Shown here one piece after another: positions 3,701 through 56,129 of a stretch of 64,000 nt of DNA (position 1 is its first letter; the number at the start of each line of letters is the position of its first letter). Both the position numbers and the translations under genes were made by a program. The notes beneath the pieces are model-generated. The model did not search any database. It saw only the letters and a list, made by a program, of their open reading frames with translations, and had not been told where the DNA came from. Source of the stretch: Malus domestica (Eukaryota > Streptophyta > Magnoliopsida > Rosales > Rosaceae); assembly GCF_042453785.1 (NCBI RefSeq), contig NC_091669.1, forward strand, positions 12,102,501-12,166,500, read 5' to 3'.

Positions 3701-4239
3701 GCTTGGGTCTTCTTTAACATGTCAGCACAAAACAGGTCCCCCAATAACAACTTAACGGCACACATAACAGCCAAACAGACTTGAGGCTTAAAATGATGAA
3801 ATTTATAAACTTTAGGGCGTAAATTGACAAATCAAAAGGTCGTGGCCTATTTTGATAAACACCCCGAATCTCAGGGATGTAAAATGCACTTTGCCCCTTT
3901 GTTTTCGATGCATAACAATCGTTCATTAGACAAGTAACGCAATTTTTGCACACTATACATGTGAGTGTGTGACAGATATTTATTCACGGTAACGTCACTG
4001 GGAATAAATCATGACTGCACGAAAAAAAGCAAGTAATCTGTGTGTTGTTGCAAACTCATAACTTTCCTCATTTATATTGTAAATAGATCACCAAAAATCA
4101 TTACTAATACGACCGGTTTAATTAACAATTACGGTCTAAATTAAACCAAACCAGCCAGGTTCTGATCAATTCTAACTAATCGATTACATTTCCAAAAACC
4201 ACTTTCAGTTGAGCACATCGACATCGATCCCGGGAGTAG

Positions 4240-7200
4240 CTAGGATGTGAGCTCATCTGCTATCAATGGAGGAACAAAATTGCAATTCTGCAGAGTCTGC
4301 TCAAATATATGACCCACCTTAAGCAACTTTCCCTGCAAAATCGACCAGAAAAATCTTAAAATCAACAATCAGATACTCAACTCCACAATCCCGTACTTTT
4401 CATTAATTCGGTGACTCTCCATTCCGTGTCTAGTCTTAATCTGCAAATGTAGCAACTTTTACTCATTTTCAGTATGTAAACGCTAGAAAAGCTGAATACT
4501 AATTCCTGATAGAAATCAACATGTCGCAATGTAGTAGGTAGGTAGAAAGGTAATACCTCGTCAAATGCTGCACCGATCATTTGAAGACCAACAGGAAGGC
4601 CTGCAGAACCCCCCTCAACAAATCCACATGGCAAAACCAGTGCAGGTAGACCTGCCAAGTTAACATTGACCTGCATACAGAATCAAGCGGAACAGGTTAG
4701 AGTCATTTAGTCATCTTATGAGTAGAAACTACATGACAGGCAATAAAAGTTTTAAAGGAGGACAAGCACTTATGCAACGTAGAGCTTAAGAAACAAGAAC
4801 CAACAGCGTGTGCCACCGAATGCCCCCAAAATGAGATCTCAGACCACTTTAAACTTCTCACTACAAACTCCAGAAACAAGGGTGTGACATTTAACCATCT
4901 ACTCTTTCGAAAGACAACAAAATTGCGAGCACAAAATGGAACTGTAGGACAGGTTGAAGTGCATGTGTCAAAAGTGCGAGTATTAACTACAGAAATAAAG
5001 GCCTTATACTCCGCCACACACTAATATGACCACAGCATTTTTTTTTTTTTTTTCTGAAACAAAATCTGAACAATTTTCCAGCAGATTACAACATGGTACA
5101 TGGGCAAGTATCTAACATTACATTGATGAATGCATATTCAACATCATGACTCAATTATCAACTCCTAGGACACACATAGACTGTCCATGCATGCAGCTAA
5201 TGAACAGAAATTAAGAAATTTGGGCACTCAGAGAAAGTGAGAAGGTTCTTACAGTCATTATGTCACCTGCATACATTGCTAGAGGATCATTTTTCTTTTC
5301 ACCTGAATAAATACAAGTAAACGGGTGAGTTACTGAAAAATCATAACATATGAAAAGCATACATATCCGTGGAAACCGGCATACCAATCTTATAAGCAGC
5401 AGATGGAGCCGCAGGTGAAATTAAGATGTCATGTTCATCTAGTGCTGCCTTGAAGCTTTTCCGAATTATAGTCCTCACCTAAAACACTATAAGAATCATT
5501 AATGCCATCTTGAACACCCTAATTGATAGGATTAAGCATCTCAGAACATAACATAGTGTAGTAACCAAGAATGAATTACTAGAATGCAAACAAAAATATA
5601 GATAATAGGATAAACTTCTCCCACCAAAAGTCCCTTTTAAATTAACACCAACATCATGGTACCTGCTGGGCGCGCTTATAATATGCATCATAATAACCAG
5701 CTGAAAGGGCATATGTTCCCGTTAGAATTCTCCTTTTAACCTGAAAACAATAAAGGCATTAAATCAACTCACCAACTGGTATAAGTCTGTAAAACAAAAT
5801 TAAGAAGAAATAATAAAAAAACTAGATCAAGTGCACTGCAGCAATGTTCCAACTAATAGAAACTTCATAACAGTTGTAAGTTTCAACCAGCCACCTAGAC
5901 ATAGTGTACCTCAGAACCAAAGCCCTTGGCTCGGGAATCCTTATATTGTGAGTTCAACTCATCAGCAGCAACATGGTTTCCATACCTGGATATGGAGGAA
6001 AAACAAATAATAACAAATGTAAGCATATTCGTCATTCTGATATACCATCTCGAGTTTTATGAATACAATTAATAACTTGTCATCTTTATTCACGGTGGAT
6101 CTAAACAAGCTTCTCCTCACCCATTTTCTCTTCTCCCATTTAAATATACAAATGAATAAACTTATTTATACATCAGAACAAACTTCTGGGTGAATTACCT
6201 GACACCATCATAACGTGATAAGTTTGAAGACGACTCAGATGAAGCAAGAATGTAATAGGCTGGCAACCCAAGTGAGAAAGATGGTAATGAGACCTGCAAG
6301 TTAATGTTTCAAGAATATATGAATCAAGACATAAGAAGGGTACACATGACATTTTGGAGGAAGGAACAGATATGAGCAACTAAAGGAAAAATTATTGATA
6401 GAAGGACCTCGGTTATGGAACATCCTAATTCTTCAAGATGCAAAGCAGCACTACGAACTGCAGAAGTTACTGCAGTATCAACACCACCATCCAGAGTTTC
6501 CTGGATCAGACCAATTCTCAATCCTTTAAGAGGTTTAGAAATTGTCGAACTTATGGAAACAAATTCAGCTGCAAGGTCGGGAACCTCCTGAAAGGAGAAA
6601 TTAAAATGTATGCGTCAAGCAAATAATTGTGATATTAGTCCTTACTAGTCTTCACATAAAAGGACCAAAAGTTTGTTAAAAAAAATTCAGAGTTCACTTT
6701 CAGGATACGTAATGAGAAGATAAGGTGGTTTTATAAAATCAAGACTTAGAAAATTTTCTTACACGCTTGCTGCTGGTTGCATCAAGTCTATCATGACCAG
6801 AAATTGCCTGAAGAAGAATCCCAGCATCAGCAACAGACGTACCAAAGCAGCCAATGACATCAAGCGACGACGCATATGCCATAAGTCCGAATCTCGAGAC
6901 GCGCCCATATGTGGGCTTCAACCCAACAACACCACAAAAAGATGCTGGCTGCCTCACACTTCCACCAGTATCACTTCCCAACGACACCATGCACTGCCTA
7001 GCAGACACAGCTGCAGCGGAGCCTCCCGATGACCCTCCTGGCACCCGAGACACGTCCCACGGGTTTGCAGTCACCTAATGAATGAACAGATGCACCACCT
7101 GAGTAAACCAACCCCAGTTACGAGTGCGAAACATAAGGAAACGAACTTACACAACCTCACTCCCTTTGACTCAGTGTCTTACTGGTAGTAATACTAAGAA

Positions 7201-16937: not shown

Positions 16938-17146
16938 TGTAGACATCGAAATTTCGGTAAATAAATGTTGACCGATAAATCAAAGTGTCAACGCTCATGT
17001 ATTACATAAATTTTACACGTAGCGTGTGACTCAATGAAAATTGAAATGAGTTGGAAAAGTCATCAAATAGGACACGTGTCAACACCTGGCATAAACGACT
17101 TATTTCATCTGGAATATTATATTCAAAATTAGGCCTTGGAAATTTC

Positions 17147-17155
17147 TATAAATAG
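17147..17155 (+). promoter_or_regulatory. LTR TATA box
   Basis: TATAAATAG in the first third of the 5' LTR. The identical motif is in the 3' LTR at 26309-26317, where it could drive readthrough toward the region downstream of the receptor kinase. Confidence 0.6.
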
Positions 17156-17279
17156 AAGGCTAATTCATTCATTTAAAAAAAAGAACCAATTCATATTACA
17201 CCTTGAAGCTCTGAAGCTCTGAAACTCCGAAGCTCTCAAGCATCCAGGTTCCCGAAGAATCAAGAAAGTGTTCTTCGTT

Positions 17280-17870
17280 CTTCGTTCTTCGTTCATCGTT
17301 CTTCCAAGATCAAGCCCCGACGGCCCTTGGATCAACAATCATCCACCTTCAAGATCAAGCCCCGACGGCCCTTGAAGAAAGCGTTCTTCGTTCTTCGTTC
17401 ATCGTTCTTCCAAGATCAAGCCCCAACGGCCATTTGGATCAACAATCATCCACCAATTCAAGATCAAGCCCCGACGGCCCTTGAAGAAAGTGTTCTTCGT
17501 TCTTCGTTCATCGTTCTTCCAAGATCAAGCCCCGACGGCCCTTGAAGAAAGTGTTATTCGTTCTTCGTTCATCATCCGTTCATCCAAGATCAAGCCCCAA
17601 CGGCCCTTTGGATCAACAACGTCGACAAATCCACACATCCAACCGTTCTTCAAGATCAAGCCCAAAAGCCCTTGAAGATCCGTTCATCACTGTTCTTCAA
17701 GATCAAGCCCAAAAGCCCTTGGAGATCCGTTCGTCACTATTCTTCAAAGATCAAGCCCAAAAGCCCCTTTGAAGATCCGCTCAAATCCACCTTCAAGATC
17801 AAGTCCACGGCCCTTGAAGAACGTTCATCCTTAGATCAAGCCCAACGGCCCTTTGGATCAATCACACATC
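17280..17870 (+). repeat. Minisatellite-like array inside the 5' LTR
   Basis: About ten degenerate units of roughly 45-60 bp share AGATCAAGCC and CGGCCCTTG/AAAGCCCTTG. Several are joined by CTTCGTTCTTCGTTCATCG. The 3' LTR carries the matching array (26430-27060) with different unit numbers. The same core recurs in the internal region at 25540-26030. Confidence 0.85.
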
Positions 17871-18010
17871 CACAAATACACACCTTACGGAGATCGAATC
17901 AGATGATCAAATTAGAGAGAGATTGTAACCCAAAATCATCAAATACAAATATTTGTTTGTGCACGTTGTTCTTGTCTCATTCGTTTCAGGAATTTTCCGT
18001 GTTCACAAAT

Positions 18011-26099: not shown

Positions 26100-27206
26100 T
26101 GTAGACATCGAAATTTCGGTAAATAAATGTTGACCGATAAATCAAAGTGTCAACGCTCATGTATTACATAAATTTTACACGTAGCGTGTGACTCAATGAA
26201 AATTGAAATGAGTTGGAAAAGTCATCAAATAGGACACGTGTCAACACCTGGCATAAACGACTTATTTCATCTGGAATATTATATTCAAAATTAGGCCTTG
26301 GAAATTTCTATAAATAGAAGGCTAATTCATTCATTTAAAAAAAAGAACCAATTCATATTACACCTTGAAGCTCTGAAGCTCTGAAACTCCGAAGCTCTCA
26401 AGCATTCAGGTTCCCGAAGAATCAAGAAAGTGTTATTCGTTCTTCGTTCATCGTTCTTCCAAGATCAAGCCCCGACGGCCCTTGGATCAACAATCATCCA
26501 CTTTCAAGATCAAGCCCCGACGGCCCTTGAAGAAAGCGTTCTTCGTTCTTCGTTCATCGTTCTTCCAAGATCAAGCCCCAACGGCCCTTTGGATCAACAA
26601 TCATCCACCAATTCAAGATCAAGCCCCGACGGCCCTTGAAGAAAGTGTTCTTCGTTCTTCGTTCATCGTTCTTCCAAGATCAAGCCCCGACGGCCCTTGG
26701 ATCAACCATCCACCAATTCAAGATCAAGCCCCGACGGCCCTTGAAGAAAGTGTTCTTCGTTCTTCGTTCATCATCCGTTCATCCAAGATCAAGCCCCAAC
26801 GGCCCTTTGGATCAACAACGTCGACAAATCCACACATCCAACCGTTCTTCAAGATCAAGCCCAAAAGCCCTTGAAGATCCGTTCATCACTGTTCTTCAAG
26901 ATCAAGCCCAAAAGCCCTTGGAGATCCGTTCGTCACTATTCTTCAAAGATCAAGCCCAAAAGCCCCTTTGAAGATCCACTCAAATCCACCTTCAAGATCA
27001 AGTCCACGGCCGTTGAAGAACGTTCATCCTTAGATCAAGCCCAACGGCCCTTTGGATCAATCACACATCCACAAATACACACCTTACGGAGATCGAATCA
27101 GATGATCAAATTAGAGAGAGATTGTAACCCAAAATCATCAAATACAAATATTTGTTTGTGCACGTTGTTCTTGTCTCATTCGTTTCAGGAATTTTCCGTG
27201 TTCACA
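26100..27206 (+). repeat. 3' LTR
   Basis: Same ends and TATA box as the 5' LTR, 1107 bp against 1070 bp; the difference is mostly in the number of internal array units. It ends 525 bp from the stop codon of the receptor-kinase gene. Confidence 0.93.
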
Positions 27207-47334: not shown

Positions 47335-48050
47335 TATAGAGAAAAATTCAAGATTTTGTATTTTTTCATTCTCCAATAATTTGTTTAACTTTACATGATT
47401 AGAAAAGAAAACTACATTCTTGAACGTATATGAAAGTTGATTGGTATGATATTTGTTTGTCAGATATTATAATCTACTTGTATTGTCATCTAGATAATTC
47501 AATACGTATTGCCTAACTTACATGAAACATATTTCTTATCACATGGTATCTCTTATCCAATACTGCATTGTCATGTATAAGTTTTCCTCTACATAATAAT
47601 ATATTATGAGACCGAAATGTCACATAACGATGAAACCGTTTCATGTAATATGTTTGCAAGAGTCTATAGGAATTTCGAATAGTGTACAGCAGCTTTTTCC
47701 AAGTGTCAAGAACTCCAGGGAGGCACGAGTGGTTGTAGTTCATGCCACGGCGGGCTCTATTGCCATAAGTAGATGGGCGGCTGTGGGACAACTCTCAACA
47801 CACTCCTGCATGTGTGACGGATTTTCAAGTCTACACGTGGACAACAACTAGGTGACGTGCAGCGCGTGTGGCCGTTTGGCTTCACACGAGGACAACCCGC
47901 TTTGATACCATGATGAAATTGAGATTCCACCATAAAACCAATTGACAATATGAGAAGTAGCCCAAGATCATATAAGCACATAGCAAACCTTGTCCCTTAC
48001 CGATGTAGGACAACTCTCAACATTAACATCTTATTTGTTATAAATAAATA

Positions 48051-49326
48051 GAGTAAACTGTCAATTTGCCCCCTAAACTTTCACCTAGCTTTCGATTTCT
48101 CCCCTGAACTTTTCGATTGGAAAATTAAGGACTCAAACTAATTTTTTTAGCCAATTTGCCCCCTACCGTTAGTTTTTCAAACATTTCATCCATATTTCTG
48201 TTAAGTGAGACCATGTGTACAACATGTGAGGGTAGTTAGTCATTTTACTCTTAAAAATGATTAAAAAACTGAAAATAAATTAAAAAAAAAAACTTTCCCT
48301 CTATTTTTTGCCTCTAATTCCTATCCTTAATTTTATTTTTCACTCATTCCTATGCATGAGAAATGACATACGATGTTATTATCTTTAAAAGTATCTAAGT
48401 TGGTCTTTTTCTTGAAGCATGTACTACCATTTTTATTTTCTCTAACAAATTAATAATTTGATAAATGCTCATGGTGTTAAATGTGCAAGAATGCAGTTGA
48501 AATATCCATCATTTGATTCTAGGTTGAGTTGTGCACTTTCTTCTCTTTTATAGTAATTAATTTATTATTTGAAAACATTGTACTTTGAGGAGGCAAGCAA
48601 AGCTTTGTGGAACTGCGTGGGTATGATATACTTTTTTTTTTTGTGTTGGATACTATTGCTAGAAAATTGGAGGAATAGTTAGGATTAGTGCAGTTAGCCG
48701 ATCTTTGGAGTTTTGATGCTAGTGATTGGAGTAGTTTTTTTTTCTTTGACTTATTGTAGTTTTTACTAGATGATGGACATGTTAACTGCTAGAAACTATT
48801 TTTATAACTATTCTAACTCTTCTACTAGTAAAGTCTTAATGTCTCTAAAATGAAGCACAACACGTAACATGCTTATATTAATGCACTGCTTTGGAGACAA
48901 TAACACCATGAACATTTGTCAAATTATTAATTTGTTAAAGAAAATAAAAATGGCAATACATGCTTCAAGAAAAAGACTAACTTAGATACTTTTGAATACC
49001 ATATGTCATTTCTCATGCATAAGAATAAGTGAAGAATAAAATTGAGGATAGGAATTAGAGGGAAAAAATAGAGGGAATGTTTTTTTTTTCTTAAATTTTT
49101 TTTCCAGTTTTTTAATCATTTTTAAGAGTGAAATGACTTAACTACCTTCACATGTTGTGAACATGGTCTCACTTAACATAAATATAGATGGAATGTTTGA
49201 AAAACTAACGGTAGGAGGCAAATTGGCTAAAAAAAATTAGTTTGAGTCCTTAATTTTCCAATCGAAAAGTTCAAGGGGGAATCGAAAACTAGATGAAAGT
49301 TTAAGAGGTAAATCGATAGTTTACTC
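48051..49326. mobile_element. Long-TIR non-autonomous MULE, 1276 bp
   Basis: The inverted arms are about 420 bp each (48051-about 48480 and about 48900-49326), beginning GAGTAAACTGTCAATTTGCC and, reverse-complemented, GAGTAAACTATCGATTTACC. The 9-bp duplication AAATAAATA flanks it (48042-48050 and 49327-49335). The matching point in copy 2 (about 52780) is uninterrupted. No transposase. Confidence 0.85.
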
Positions 49327-49709
49327 AAATAAATAAGGTTCAAAAGCGAGTCTAGATAAATGATAGACTGTCACATCGATCATGCACAATGAATAATGTA
49401 ATATTGGTGAGTAGTGCATTACTTTTGACATATATATCGACCCAACAATTATTGTTTAATTTTGAAGGAGAATCTAAATTCCAATTTCATAAACAAAAGG
49501 ACCTAATACCCTTTTGATAGATGGGAGGGTTTTCTCCTTGTATAGCTCAAAAGTTATCAATATGTGGGACTAATGTTTAACGGATTTAAACTTACTTTTA
49601 ATGACTCAGTGAAATACTTTGTAAGAATACTTTAGTTTTCTCAGTATCAACAATTTGTCCATTCAATGTGTCCAAATTTTTAACGCTTTCTAATAAGCAA
49701 CAAGACGAT

Positions 49710-49815
49710 GAGGACAAGGCCTAGCTGCAGTGGCACTAGGGCCAAGGAAACTCCTACCTCACCCAAGTTCGATTCCCCCCTCCCCTAAATTTAATGCCTG
49801 ATGTCAAAAAAAAAA
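49710..49815 (+). mobile_element. Short tRNA-derived SINE, 106 bp
   Basis: Perfect 18-bp target duplications (49692-49709 and 49816-49833; AATAAGCAACAAGACGAT) flank the element. It has an A-box-like TAGCTGCAGTGGC, a B-box-like GTTCGATTCCC and an A tail. Copy 2 of the segmental duplication (about 53150) lacks it. Confidence 0.85.
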
Positions 49816-51609
49816 AATAAGCAACAAGACGATCCACGTCATGATATAAAGTTTTTCTATCTTGAACAAAATCCCACCTGCATGACATGCCAACAAAAGC
49901 TTACCCTACCATATGCTTTTATACATATTTAAGTCCTAATATTTCTCATTCACATAAATAAGCGCTCTATCGCTGAAGTTATACGATTTAAACCACTAAA
50001 AGCAAGATCATATCTCACGGTTGTTTCCTTCCAGTATGGAGCCACCAGTGCCACGTGTTGAAGAGAGTTGTCCGACCAGTAATTCGTAAGGAACTTTTTC
50101 ACAAAAATATGACCTTACATATTTTAGTAGGATTCGATTTCACAATAATTCTATTTAAAGAGTTGCTCGAGTCAATCAATTCTAAAAAAAAATTCTCGTA
50201 GTTTGAGTTTGAGTTGCACCACCTACAGATAAAGCTGTGAAATCTTTTTTTTTATTATTATTGGAAAAGCTGTGAAATCTTTCATAGCACAACTCTTTAT
50301 GATACATTCATTTATTAAAAATAATCGTTTTTTTAGGGAAAAAATAAGTTGTCCCAGTAAAAACATGAAGGGAAAAAAAAAAAGGAATTCGCATAGAATT
50401 GTTGAATTTTTGCATTATTCGAAGTGAACAAGCAGAAGAGGAGTCGATTGCTGGTATTTTTTATGAAACTCCTTTGTTCAAAGAGATTTACAATATAATC
50501 TAAACTACTAAACAGGAAATTCAAACTTAAGTGAGAGAAAATAAATTGCTTTAATTAACTTGATTAGGTCCGTACGTAGTTTTCAAACTCCAACTCTGTT
50601 AATTATAGTCTATGAGTTTAGAATTTTCTTTTTAAGAGTTGATTCGACACTTGCTAATGAGCAGCATGCTAGCATTCTTGCATCAAAATTCGATTTTTTT
50701 TCCGTAGATAAAGTGGTTTAAAATCTCTCTTTGTCAATAACGAAACTATCTCGAAAAAGACGGATTAGATTGAAACTTATTTAGAGAGGACACAAAAAAG
50801 AAAATCAAATAGGGATAGAAGGAAAACCTAATATAGAGAAAAATTCAAGATTTTGTATTTTTTCATTCTCCAATAATTTGTTTAACTTTACATGATTAGA
50901 AAAGAAAACTACATTCTTGAACGTATATGGAAGTTGATTGGTATGATATTTGTTTGTCAGATATTATAATCTACTTGTATTGTCATTTAGATAATTCAAT
51001 TCGTATTGCCTAACTTACATGAAACAGATTTCTTATCACGTGGTATCTTTTATCCAATACTGTATTATCATGTATAAGTTTTTCTTTACATGATAATATA
51101 TTATGAGACCGAGATGTCACATGACGGTAAAACAGTTTCATGTAATATGAGAGTTTATAGGAATTTCGAATGAACTCAGTGTACAGTAGTTTGTTCCAAG
51201 TGTCAAGAACTCCAGGGAGGCACCAGTGGCTGCAGTCCAGTCTACGGCGGGCTCCATTGCCATGTGTAGATGGGCGGCCGTCTTTCCTCAGCTGTGACAG
51301 CCCTGTCACGTTAAGCAACAGCACTAGCTTCGACATGTCACTAAGAACTTTTTTTCGGTTTTTCCACAATCACATATGTTGGGTGTTTTCTTTTTGGGTA
51401 TGCTTTTACGGGAGGTGGGTTCTATACCTTCCTAATCTTTCTTCCGTTCATTTCCCTTCTATTTGAATGGTTATAGTTTAGCCATGTTAATATCTTATAT
51501 TGATTTTTTTTTATAGAGACAATAAGACAAAAAACAATATGTGAGAGGAAGGGGGGAAGAGGATGAAAATAGGAGGGAAGAGAATCATTCTTCGTTTTTA
51601 CTAGCCAAC

Positions 51610-51812
51610 AGAATCTTCTCCGGATTTTTTTGGTGATAATCTTGGGAATCTGTAAATCGTGTTCATTCATTATACATTATACGGTCAGTTTTTATCAGTT
51701 ACTGTTTGTATTTAATTTTAAATAAAAATATTTAAAATAATTTCTGATTGCATGATGTACAATGAACGGATATAATTCACAGATTTTCAAAATCTTCACA
51801 AAAAGAATCCGG
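51610..51812. mobile_element. MITE, CTCCGGAT family
   Basis: Left TCTCCGGATTTTTTTGGTGA and reverse-complemented right CCGGATTCTTTTTGTGAAG are inverted. The middle resembles the repeat at 3.42-3.70 kb. Confidence 0.5.
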
Positions 51813-51877
51813 CAAGCTACAAGTTTTCATACCAACTTTATTCATAAAATGATGAATGATCATATTTACATCTCTTA

Positions 51878-52760
51878 GGGCACGTTTGTTTGGCCGGCTT
51901 AAGTTTCACTGGACTGGACTACTAAGCTAGAATCAGTAGTCCTGTGTTTGGTGTAAATTGGGATTGTGTTTAATGGGATTAAGCCGGACTCGTGCCGACT
52001 AAATCCTTCGCTAGGTGGGCTTAGCGAGAGCCACCAAAAACGAGGGGATTTGTAGTCCCGCTTCTGTTCTTCTCTTCACCTCATGTTGCTTCGCTTCACC
52101 CCAGGCTTGAACGACAACTTGCGGTCCCTTTCTCTGACTCTCTCTCTCTCCTCCTCCCTCTTCTTCATCTCAGAAGATCTCTAAATCTGCAATTTTGGGT
52201 TTGACGGAAACGAATCCAAGAAATCCAAGCCATCGCCTTCTCTCACTTCCCCGACTCCACAAACCCCGACTCGTTGCTGGACAGCTTGCCAGGCATTGTT
52301 GCAGGCTGGTTCCGCCGCTCCACAGGCTTGCGGCTCCGATTGAATCCACGGACTTGGAAAGCTCTCTCCAGTTGTAATCTTGCACCGAACAAAAACCTGA
52401 AAAACCAAGCTCGATTCTTCGTTTTGCAGAAAAAAATTTGGCAATTAATCGGAAAAAAAGAGGGCAGGAAGGAGAGAGTGGGACGGAGAGAACGAGGGAG
52501 ATAAAGAGGGAGAAAAGGATGAGGCTTCCACAGAGAGAGGGAGAGTTTTATTAGAATAAAAAAAGTAGAATTAATTAATATAATATTATTAGATATGAAT
52601 TAAAAAATATAATATTGTAGTTTGCTATTATCCTTCTTTTTAGTCCGACACTGCACCAAACGTTTCACTAAGTTAGTCCAGCTTAGTCTAGTCTAAGCCA
52701 GTCCAGCTTAGTCCCTGAAGCTAGTCCAGTTTGAGATAGTCCGGTGCAACAAACGCACCC
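51878..52760. mobile_element. PIF/Harbinger-type non-autonomous element, 883 bp
   Basis: Ends GGGCACGTTTGTT and, reverse-complemented, GGGTGCGTTTGTT, flanked by TTA on both sides (51875-51877 and 52761-52763), the usual PIF target duplication. The subterminal regions carry many TAGTCC / AGTCCAG motifs. No transposase; the short GC-rich ORFs at 52170-52504 overlap each other on both strands and are unlike known proteins. Confidence 0.75.
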
Positions 52761-53574
52761 TTAAAATCTTATTTGTTATAAATAAATGAGGTTCAAAAGT
52801 GAGCCTAGGTAAATGATAGACTGTCACATCGTTCATGCACAATGAATAATGTAACAATGGTGAGTAGTGCATTACTTTAGACATGTATATCGACCCGACA
52901 ATTATTGTTTAATATTGAAGAGATTCTAAATTCTATTCCCATAAACAAAAGGACCTAATACCCTTTTGATAGAAGGGAGGGTTTTCTCCTTGTATAGCTC
53001 AAAAGTTATCAATATGTGGGACTAATGCTTAACGGATTTAAACTTACTTCCAATGACTCAGTGAAATACTTTAGAAGAATATTTTGGTTTTCTCAATATC
53101 AACAATTTGTCCATCCAACATGCCCAAGTTTTTTATGCTTTCTGATAAGCAATCCGTGTCATGATATAAAGTTTTTCTATCTTGAACAAAATCCCACCTG
53201 CATGACATGCAAACAAAAGCTTACCCTACCATATGCTTTTATACATATTTAAGTCCTAATATTTCTCATTCACATAAATAAGTGCTCTATCGCTGGTTGT
53301 TTCCTTCCAGTATGGAGCCACCAGTGCCACGTGTTGAAGAGAGTTGTCCGACCAGTAATTCGTAGGGAACTTTTTCACAAAAATGTGACCTTACATATTT
53401 TAGTAGGATTCGATTTCACAATAATTCTATTTAAAAAGTTGCTCAAGTCAATCAATCCTATAAAAAAAATTCTTGTAGTTTGAGTTTGAGTTGCACCACC
53501 TACCGATAAAGTTGTGAAATCTTTTTATTATTATTGGAAAAGCTGTGAAATCTTTCCTAGCACAACTCTTTATG

Positions 53575-53794
53575 GGACTTGGATTTTCTGTCTTTCCATT
53601 TCGGTGTTCTTCTCGTGTCTTTCTATTTGTGTAGTTACGGTTAAGTCACGTCAACATTTTATATTACTATTTCTTTTTATTTTATTATTTTTATAAAAAA
53701 ACAATATAAAATGTTGACGTGGCTTAATCGTGACCACACAAAACATAAGGGTACGGAGAGGGCATCGAAATGGAAGGGCAGACAATCCAAGTCC
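53575..53794. mobile_element. Foldback MITE, 220 bp
   Basis: Arms GGACTTGGATTTTCTGTC and, reverse-complemented, GGACTTGGATTGTCTGCC stay similar for almost half the element, so the whole unit is a hairpin. TCTTTATG flanks both sides. Copy 1 (about 50300) has the uninterrupted site. Confidence 0.8.
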
Positions 53795-54032
53795 TTCTTT
53801 ATGATACATTCATTTATTAAAAATAATCGTTTTTTTAGGGAAACAATAAGTTGTCCCAGTAAAAACATGAAGGAAAAAAAAAAGGAATTCGCATTGAATT
53901 GTTGAATTTTTGCATTGTTCCAGGTGAACAAGCAGAAGAGGAGTCGATTGCTGGTATTTTTTATGAAACTACTTGTTCAAAGAGATTTAGAATATAATCT
54001 AAAGGCCTAATCAGATAAATGGTCTACGTGAT

Positions 54033-54591
54033 TGTGGATGCAAATTTCCGCCTTCTTCTTCTTGGACAAAATTACACCAACAAAACAATTAACACCTTAG
54101 GTCAAGGCCAAGAGCCTCACGCATCCACGATGAATGGGGGGCTTTAGCCGAAGAATCTCCGATGCCAAAGTTAGAATTTAAAGAGAAAAATATTTGGAGA
54201 GTTTTTGGGAGTTTTGCAAGAGTGTAGACCTCCTTTTTTAGAAAAAAAATAGGATCATATATATAGGGAATGGAGGTGGTCGGCCCTTAGAGGTTTTTTT
54301 TGTGAAAATTGGTGATTTAATTGGTGATTAATGGATTCATTAGGAATTAATCCATTAATTAGCCAATTAATCTCCATTTATATGGAATAATTTGTAGGTT
54401 ATGAAGTAATTACCTAAGATGAGGATGGATGAGATAATTTGGAATTGGTTACTTTTTTTGGATACTCTTGGCTTGATTAAAGAATGATTGTCCACTGCTC
54501 GCGCGTAGGACAACCGGTGTGTCTCAGGGGTAACTTTGTCATTTTTCACAAAAAATCCATGTGTCGCCTTGTGATTATTTTTGGCTCCACA
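54033..54591. mobile_element. Solo LTR nested in the Pack-MULE arm
   Basis: 559 bp, TGTGGATGC...GGCTCCACA, with the 5-bp duplication GTGAT on each side (54028-54032 and 54592-54596). Removing it restores the left TIR to match the right TIR. The internal CTCCGATGCCAAAGTTAGAA motif is shared with the fragment at 35.5 kb. Confidence 0.88.
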
Positions 54592-54748
54592 GTGATCATA
54601 AGGTATTCGAAAGATAGTCACCGTGGTAAAAAAATTCGGATTTAAACCCCAGTGGTCTAAATCTTTTAGAATTTATGCTCGAAATTAGAGTTTCTGTCAT
54701 TCATCTGATAGTAGCTTGCAGGTGGGTCTTAAGGTAAGACAAAGATTG

Positions 54749-55222
54749 TCATTTCATCATTTCCATTTCATCCCTTACATACTTAAACACAAGTTTTGCA
54801 CCCAATTGCCCATTAGCTTCCACACCATTGTCACAGATAATTGAGTGAACCCTTTTTCCGTCTTGGAGCAACATCATTCCAGCACAAAGCTCCATAACGG
54901 AGCAGTAAGCCTCCAAGTCAAGCTCGGATTTTTGAGCCCCCGACACCATTTCCATGGCGGATTTCAGATTACCCATTTCGCAGTACTTGTTAATCTTGGC
55001 ATTCTTGTCTGCAACTCCGGTGATGGCGGGTGCGGCGAGAGAGTCGGAGACGTGAAACTGGGCACGAGAAAGGCCCGAATTTGGAGATAACATAGGGGTT
55101 TTTGAAGAGAGTTTGAGGAAGATGTAACCATTTGAGGGTCTGAAAGATTTTGATTTGTTTTCGTGGTGAGGAAGAGGAGATATCGACAACAAGTTTTGCG
55201 GTGTGGTTGTGGCCGTCATCAT
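54749..55222 (-). pseudogene. Captured 5' end of a DOT4-like PPR gene, chimeric 157-codon ORF
   Basis: The ORF begins MMTATTTPQNLLSISPLP, a plausible organellar targeting sequence. It then shows AKINKYCEMGNLKSAMEMV, YCSVMELCAG, LLQDGKRVHSIICDNG and GAKLVFKYV, which matches the region just before and in the first PPR motifs of DOT4 (At4g18750)-type chloroplast editing factors. The full-length protein is over 850 residues; here the host part stops after KYV. The last eight residues (RDEMEMMK) and the stop are encoded by the MULE terminal repeat, so the protein would be a host-transposon chimera. It could not act as an editing factor because nearly all PPRs and the E/DYW domains are missing. Confidence 0.8.
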
Positions 55223-56129
55223 TGTTCTGAAAGGAGATCAATGAAAGGGATGAAATGGAAATGATGAAATGACCATCTTAGTCTTGTCCGTGAGACCCAC
55301 CTGCAAGCTATTAACGGAGGAATGACAGAAGTTCTAATTTCAAGTATAAATCCTAACAGACTTAGACCACGGGGTTTAAATCCGAATTTTTTTACCACAT
55401 GGGCTATCTTTCGAATTCCTTATGACCACGGAGACCATTTATCCGATTAGGCCTAATCTAAACTACTAAACAGGAAATTCAAACTTAAGTGAGAAAATAA
55501 ATTGCTTTAATTTACTTGGTTAGGTCCGTCGTAGTTTTCAAACTTTGACTCTGTTAATTATACTCTATGAGTTTAGAATTTTCTTTTTAAGAGTTGATTC
55601 GACACTTGCTAATGAGTAGCATGCTAGCCTTCTTGCATCAAAATTTGATTGTTTCTCCGTAGATTCGAGTGGTTTAAAATCGCTCTTTGTCAATGATGAA
55701 ACTATCTCGAAAAAGACGGATTAGACTGAAACTTATTTAGAGAGGACACAAAAGAGACAAAATCAAATAGGGAAAGAAGGAAAACCTAACATCAAGGAAC
55801 AAAATTGGATAAAGAGGAGTCATTTTGTGAAAAGCTATAGCAAAAGTGAAAAACAAGGGGTTACAGCTGAATGCTCATGCTGTTGAAGAGAATCAAACTG
55901 CTCTGTTATACAAAGCTGAACAAGTTTCCAAACTTTTGATGCTCTGGGAGATCACATGGATTTTCCATTACATGATCAAGAACAAAAAATAAAACAAATT
56001 GAACGGATCACATGGCTTGATGATTCGTGGAAGAGTAGCTTCCTGTATATCTCCTACCGCCTTTTTGCACGAAGAATCGCAGATACTACGTAGACTGTAA
56101 CATGCTATGCCGCCACTCCAATGGTTAGT

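Follow-up and report, generated by a model that had tools for sequence, protein, structure and literature searches.

A transposon that carries the beginning of a host gene within an intact reading frame may be a working chimera or genomic debris, and the locus at 54004-55453 of the window (the whole 64,000-nucleotide stretch of apple DNA that was analysed, C9:12102501-12166500 in a 651-Mb genome of 19 contigs) raises the question which of the two it is. We consider it to be a non-autonomous MULE (Pack-MULE) that captured the 5' part of a PPR-DYW gene and spread to at least six loci, with a reading frame that is a neutral leftover, and we put the probability of this reading at about 0.93.

MULEs are characterized by target site duplications (TSDs) of 9 to 11 bp, long terminal inverted repeats (TIRs) common to a family, and mobilisation by the MURA-type transposase of an element that has these TIRs too. 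Here the element is bordered by exactly the 9-bp duplication that the original prediction had proposed, TAATCTAAA at 53995-54003 and again at 55454-55462, and the same word occurs only once in a tandem paralogue, at 50496-50504, where the empty target reads ...ATATAATCTAAACTACTAAACAG without interruption. Both flanks are joined at the insertion point in a third paralogue (C9:12188700-12190000) too. The unoccupied target in the tandem paralogue thus demonstrates the MULE insertion directly. The site lies in a tandem duplication whose unit measures about 3.5 kb (window 47335-51281 and 50832-55792, with pieces 87-94% identical), of which a further copy is found near C9:12189662. Since the tandem copies beside the insertion site are 93.7% (222 bp) and 92.4% (342 bp) identical, versus 81% over 1.1 kb between a C17 flank and the window flank, the insertion would most simply be younger than the local duplication, which is now 6-8% diverged.

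Once the solo LTR nested in it is discounted, the element measures 886 bp. The left TIR consists of an outer part of 29 bp (54004-54032) and an inner part at 54592-54780, the latter matching 55241-55429 on the opposite strand, while the right TIR with an inner extension occupies 55220-55453 and reads ...TGATCTCCTTTCAGAAC in the ORF sense beside the ATG; the extension is also present in sister elements on C7 and C15. TIRs of about 209 bp, as predicted, are present; over 190 bp the arms are 86.8% identical, and over the outer 28 bp 93% (left TIR after removal of the LTR, GGTCTACGTGATCATAAGG; right counterpart, GGTCTCCGTGGTCATAAGG). The longest ORF in the region is a 157-codon PPR fragment on the minus strand (54749-55222): the element contains part of a host gene and lacks a transposase. 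Its first ATG stands at the right TIR junction, followed by 148 codons of the PPR parent, and the homology to the parent ends at residue 149. From there the frame passes from GTA straight into the left TIR, which provides the last eight codons (RDEMEMMK) and the stop TGA, exactly as predicted for an ORF that ends inside the terminal repeat.

The boundaries 54004-55453 given in the original prediction hold, but the solo LTR of 559 bp in the left TIR (54033-54591) had been missed. It splits the TIR between two copies of its own 5-bp duplication GTGAT (54028-54032, the end of the outer TIR part, and 54592-54596, the start of the inner part) and has the termini TGTGG...CCACA. At least 35 further near-full-length matches with 89-95% identity were found among the best 40 of 4112 candidates that were scored, several of them forming same-strand pairs about 3-4 kb apart. 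For example, locus L068 contains two LTRs (152-711 and 4178-4733, about 4 kb apart) that are 94.6% and 92.4% identical to the solo LTR of the window, and it has no stop-free stretch longer than 113 codons. The 5-bp duplication, the terminal bases and the full pairs elsewhere in the genome are common to solo LTRs generally, and this one differs only by its nesting in a MULE TIR. Four of the five other copies of the element are free of the LTR at the same TIR point, and the C14 copy lacks that end.

For the 468-bp interior, which had been described as host-like, 444 bp (54776-55219, minus strand) correspond to parent codons 3-150 of a PPR gene on C10 with 94% identity (418 of 444; 26 positions differ). 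Searched as a protein, the 157-codon ORF gave 11 rows: nine from the six element loci, one from the parent, and one distant match (23% identity). The match in the parent lies at C10:38604381-38604830, within an uninterrupted open frame of 898 aa (879 codons from the ATG) that encodes PPR, an E motif and a DYW deaminase. The class that had been proposed, a Pack-MULE with the 5' end of a PPR gene, is thereby confirmed with an intact PPR-E-DYW parent. The name DOT4, that of a plastid editing factor of Arabidopsis, which the original prediction had given to the parent, would be consistent with these domains. The parent gene is unlinked and without TIRs, and five element loci compared by BLAST with the 6-kb parent locus (L020) match it in the captured part alone. 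The capture comes from the GC-richer 5' end, as anticipated, with a GC content of 0.496 in the first 450 bp of the parent ORF against 0.434 in the remainder.

The same capture exists at six loci, namely the window (C9), C1, C6, C14, C5:21.0 Mb and C5:15.6 Mb. The captured part matches the parent at 425 of 444 positions in C1, 424 of 444 in C6, 413 of 443 in C14, 395 of 424 in C5:21.0 Mb and 394 of 423 in C5:15.6 Mb. The 5' junction is common to all six copies and the 3' junction to five of them (it is deleted in C5:21.0 Mb), and neither is present in the parent; the shared junctions indicate a single capture that was then amplified. Distinct TSDs are found among the copies (TAATCTAAA, TTCAACTAA and TTTTATTTT, and the 10-bp AAAAAAATAA at C5:15.6 Mb). 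At the right junction the copies read GAACGATGATGATGGCC, with small changes in single copies, and sister elements with other interiors read GAACGATGAAACGG, which assigns GATGA to the TIR and TTGATGG to the parent, the exact base being ambiguous across the shared GATG. In the captured part the six copies differ from one another by 4-9%. The capture had been called recent, which holds insofar as the window insertion is younger than the local duplication, and does not hold insofar as the capture has spread to at least six loci with this divergence.

The history of the window copy can be proposed as follows. A member of a TIR family whose termini number in the hundreds would have acquired 444 bp of 5' sequence from the PPR-DYW gene that is now on C10; gap-filling or template switching at the short shared GATG motif is the probable mechanism. 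Transposition in trans would then have brought the element to at least six loci, and the window copy would have entered one unit of the tandem duplication, giving rise to the 9-bp duplication. Most simply it was later that an LTR retrotransposon struck the window MULE and recombined to the solo LTR, an order of events that we infer.

The MULEs of the C14 copy (L025:2536-2860) and the C5:15.6 Mb copy (L021:1688-2006) occupy the same point of a high-copy repeat. Their shared flank was considered as a segmental duplication, and it turned out to be this repeat instead (at least 40 matches; 40 scored of 494 candidates). The shared point may reflect the common descent of a nested unit or the repeated choice of the same A/T-rich target.

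The abundance of the same TIR, whose count had been proposed as a check, was obtained by searching the genome for the terminal 21 bases with at most one mismatch, and it turned out that there are 336 termini (165 forward and 171 reverse), while the reversed control gave 0 and 0. The elements of this family end with GGCCTAATC...GATTAGGCC. Among 24 loci scanned for terminus pairs, 21 have a pair, and the three without (L021, L022 and L025) are copies of the PPR element with altered ends. The 21 outer pairs are flanked by exact 9-bp duplications in 13 cases, by duplications off by one base in four, and by unmatched bases in the 9-bp register in the other four.

Besides the PPR fragment, the family carries other captures. 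The C7 and C15 elements have a common interior with an 88% match to C16:5102721-5103228, a locus in which no match to the TIR query was found and which would be the donor of this interior. An element at C2:5.94 Mb contains an F-box fragment (Pfam F-box-like, E = 1.9e-5); at the protein level its residues 9-101 are 87% and 86% identical to two open frames, which lie on C2 and C7 and have 427 and 443 codons, respectively. In search of an autonomous partner, the MULE domain gave at least 151 matches (the best 150 of 482 candidates were scored), and from these matches alone no transposase was tied to the TIRs. Within the family, L082, L083, L085-L088 and L092 form a subfamily with the same TIRs and related, repetitive interiors, whose GC content is 0.55-0.68 versus 0.28-0.50 in the other 13 interiors scanned. 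Besides, L089, L090, L091 and L093 have doubled termini: on each side a second TIR-like end is found about 173 bp inward of the first, beside GTTTAGGTT and AACCTAAAC.

As to whether the element does anything for or against its parent, an unlikely reading, though a more probable one than the other alternatives, is that small RNAs from the captured segment act in trans on the parent PPR gene, dampening or methylating it. The window copy shares 143 identical 21-mers and 124 identical 24-mers with the parent locus (77-154 and 60-133, respectively, across the six copies), but such words follow from any capture and are uninformative on use. The long TIRs could form hairpins, but one TIR arm of the window copy is interrupted by the solo LTR. 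A precedent exists in rice, where 24-nt small RNAs map to TIRs and interiors of MULEs (PMC4858842).

We judge it very improbable that the 157-codon ORF makes a functional, putatively plastid-targeted short PPR-like peptide, such as a decoy, although it is open in the window and C1 copies, keeps the N-terminus of the parent and takes its stop from the TIR. In the other four of the six copies the frame is broken: by a TAA and a 2-base insertion in C6, by a stop and a 1-base deletion in C14, by a 1-base deletion and loss of the 3' part in C5:21.0 Mb, and by a 1-base deletion and a 1.5-kb insert in C5:15.6 Mb. Simulated neutral change left the captured stretch without a stop in 0.48-0.39 of runs at 19-26 substitutions (substitutions alone, without indels), so that two open frames in six need no special explanation. 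A single weak PPR match is all that the ORF retains (Pfam E = 0.058; score 13.6 bits, cut-off 23.8).

We searched for purifying selection on the frame among the six copies through private changes, defined as changes in one copy alone where all other sequences with a base at the position agree (at least four, parent included), and compared them with a neutral expectation from the mutation spectrum of the same elements, with stops left out of the expectation. None was detected in the captured part, in which 41 nonsynonymous (N, two of them stops) and 18 synonymous (S) changes stand against an expected N fraction of 0.715 (p = 0.41 for fewer N), small numbers in which weak selection would be missed; the two open copies alone gave 10 N and 5 S (p = 0.43). 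The NG86 dN/dS ratios below 1 lean towards constraint and would favour the peptide (window-parent, 0.50; C1-parent, 0.40; window-C1, 0.59), but this method disregards the strong excess of C-to-T and G-to-A changes seen in the elements, and the broken copies gave 0.51 (C6), 0.75 (C14) and 0.56 (C5:21.0 Mb) against the parent, C5:15.6 Mb being left out of the ratios. Purifying selection was set aside, given that C6 yields 0.51 although its frame is broken and that the private changes fit the neutral spectrum. We infer that the open frame is a neutral leftover with no product, and the neutral N:S ratio and the four broken frames speak against the plastid-targeted short protein of the original prediction.

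Equally little credence is given to the broader proposal that the TIR family is a frame-making cassette, in which one end has a start nearby and the other provides a stop: an in-phase 5' capture would become a short closed ORF, putatively organelle-targeted, and the C9 and C1 copies would be expressed and serve as decoys or as sources of small RNAs directed at the parent editing factor. Finally, although the genome contains duplicated segments and the C5:15.6 Mb copy at first resembled a duplicate-gene remnant of the parent, the reading of the interior as common transposon sequence or a PPR gene remnant is practically untenable, since both the junctions that the copies share and the empty site refute it: the parent at 94% is found on C10, its homology breaks off at the same points in TIR-bounded elements (5' in 6 of 6, 3' in 5 of 6), the element loci compared match nothing else of the parent locus, and the C5:15.6 Mb copy, with TIRs and a target duplication, is a sixth element copy.

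Pack-MULEs of rice and other plants have reportedly been described in Jiang 2004, Jiang 2011 and Hanada 2009. The apple element resembles them in being non-autonomous with long TIRs and 9-bp A/T-rich TSDs, in carrying a fragment of a host gene from another chromosome, taken from its GC-richer 5' part, and in having several copies with different TSDs from one capture. The window copy differs by the split through the solo LTR, and by an ORF that starts at one TIR junction and stops in the other TIR. Two papers (PMC8277862, PMC4858842) describe Pack-MULEs as MULEs that are non-autonomous and contain pieces of genes, that often exist in several copies with distinct TSDs (481 of 1337 are multicopy in rice, as quoted in PMC8277862) and of which a minority is under detectable constraint. 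The element fits this published description in each feature compared. Animal Pack-TIRs are similar in that their interiors were copied from elsewhere and short shared sequences occur at many breakpoints, and different in that they belong mostly to the hAT and TcMariner superfamilies and are mostly single-copy (PMC8277862). In the titles and abstract openings of the papers listed, no account of this element or of an apple Pack-MULE with a PPR fragment was found; a grapevine transposon paper (PMC2528002) contains both “Pack-MULE” and “pentatricopeptide”.

The element is thus an ordinary, well-documented kind of genomic debris, a Pack-MULE with a nested solo LTR. With a parent, six copies, an empty site and the solo LTR for relative dating, it is well resolved, and it illustrates that a Pack-MULE can hold an intact chimeric ORF which is no more than a neutral leftover. 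Pieces of at least two genes that can be recognised, PPR-DYW and F-box, occur in its TIR family, together with part of a third locus.

Several minor observations concern the copies and the surroundings of the element. Private changes are about 5-fold more frequent outside than inside the capture in C1 (L023; 19 of 367 versus 4 of 368, p = 0.0013) and about 2.5-fold in C6 (L024; 15 of 363 versus 6 of 370, p = 0.047), unlike in the C14 and C5:15.6 Mb copies, with C14 leaning the opposite way (3 of 279 versus 13 of 376, p = 0.07). For the six copies pooled, the counts are 68 of 1806 outside and 60 of 2207 inside (p = 0.07). The excess in C1 and C6 counts against the neutral reading of the frame; it may stem from gene conversion among TIRs, among other causes. 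In the window, a fold-back element of about 220 bp (53575-53794; self-match on the opposite strand, 73%) adjoins the MULE and is missing from the tandem paralogue near 50301, and TCTTTATG on both of its sides suggests a MITE insertion. Elsewhere in the window, a direct repeat of 1.1 kb (16938-18007 and 26100-27206) is 95% identical between its two copies.
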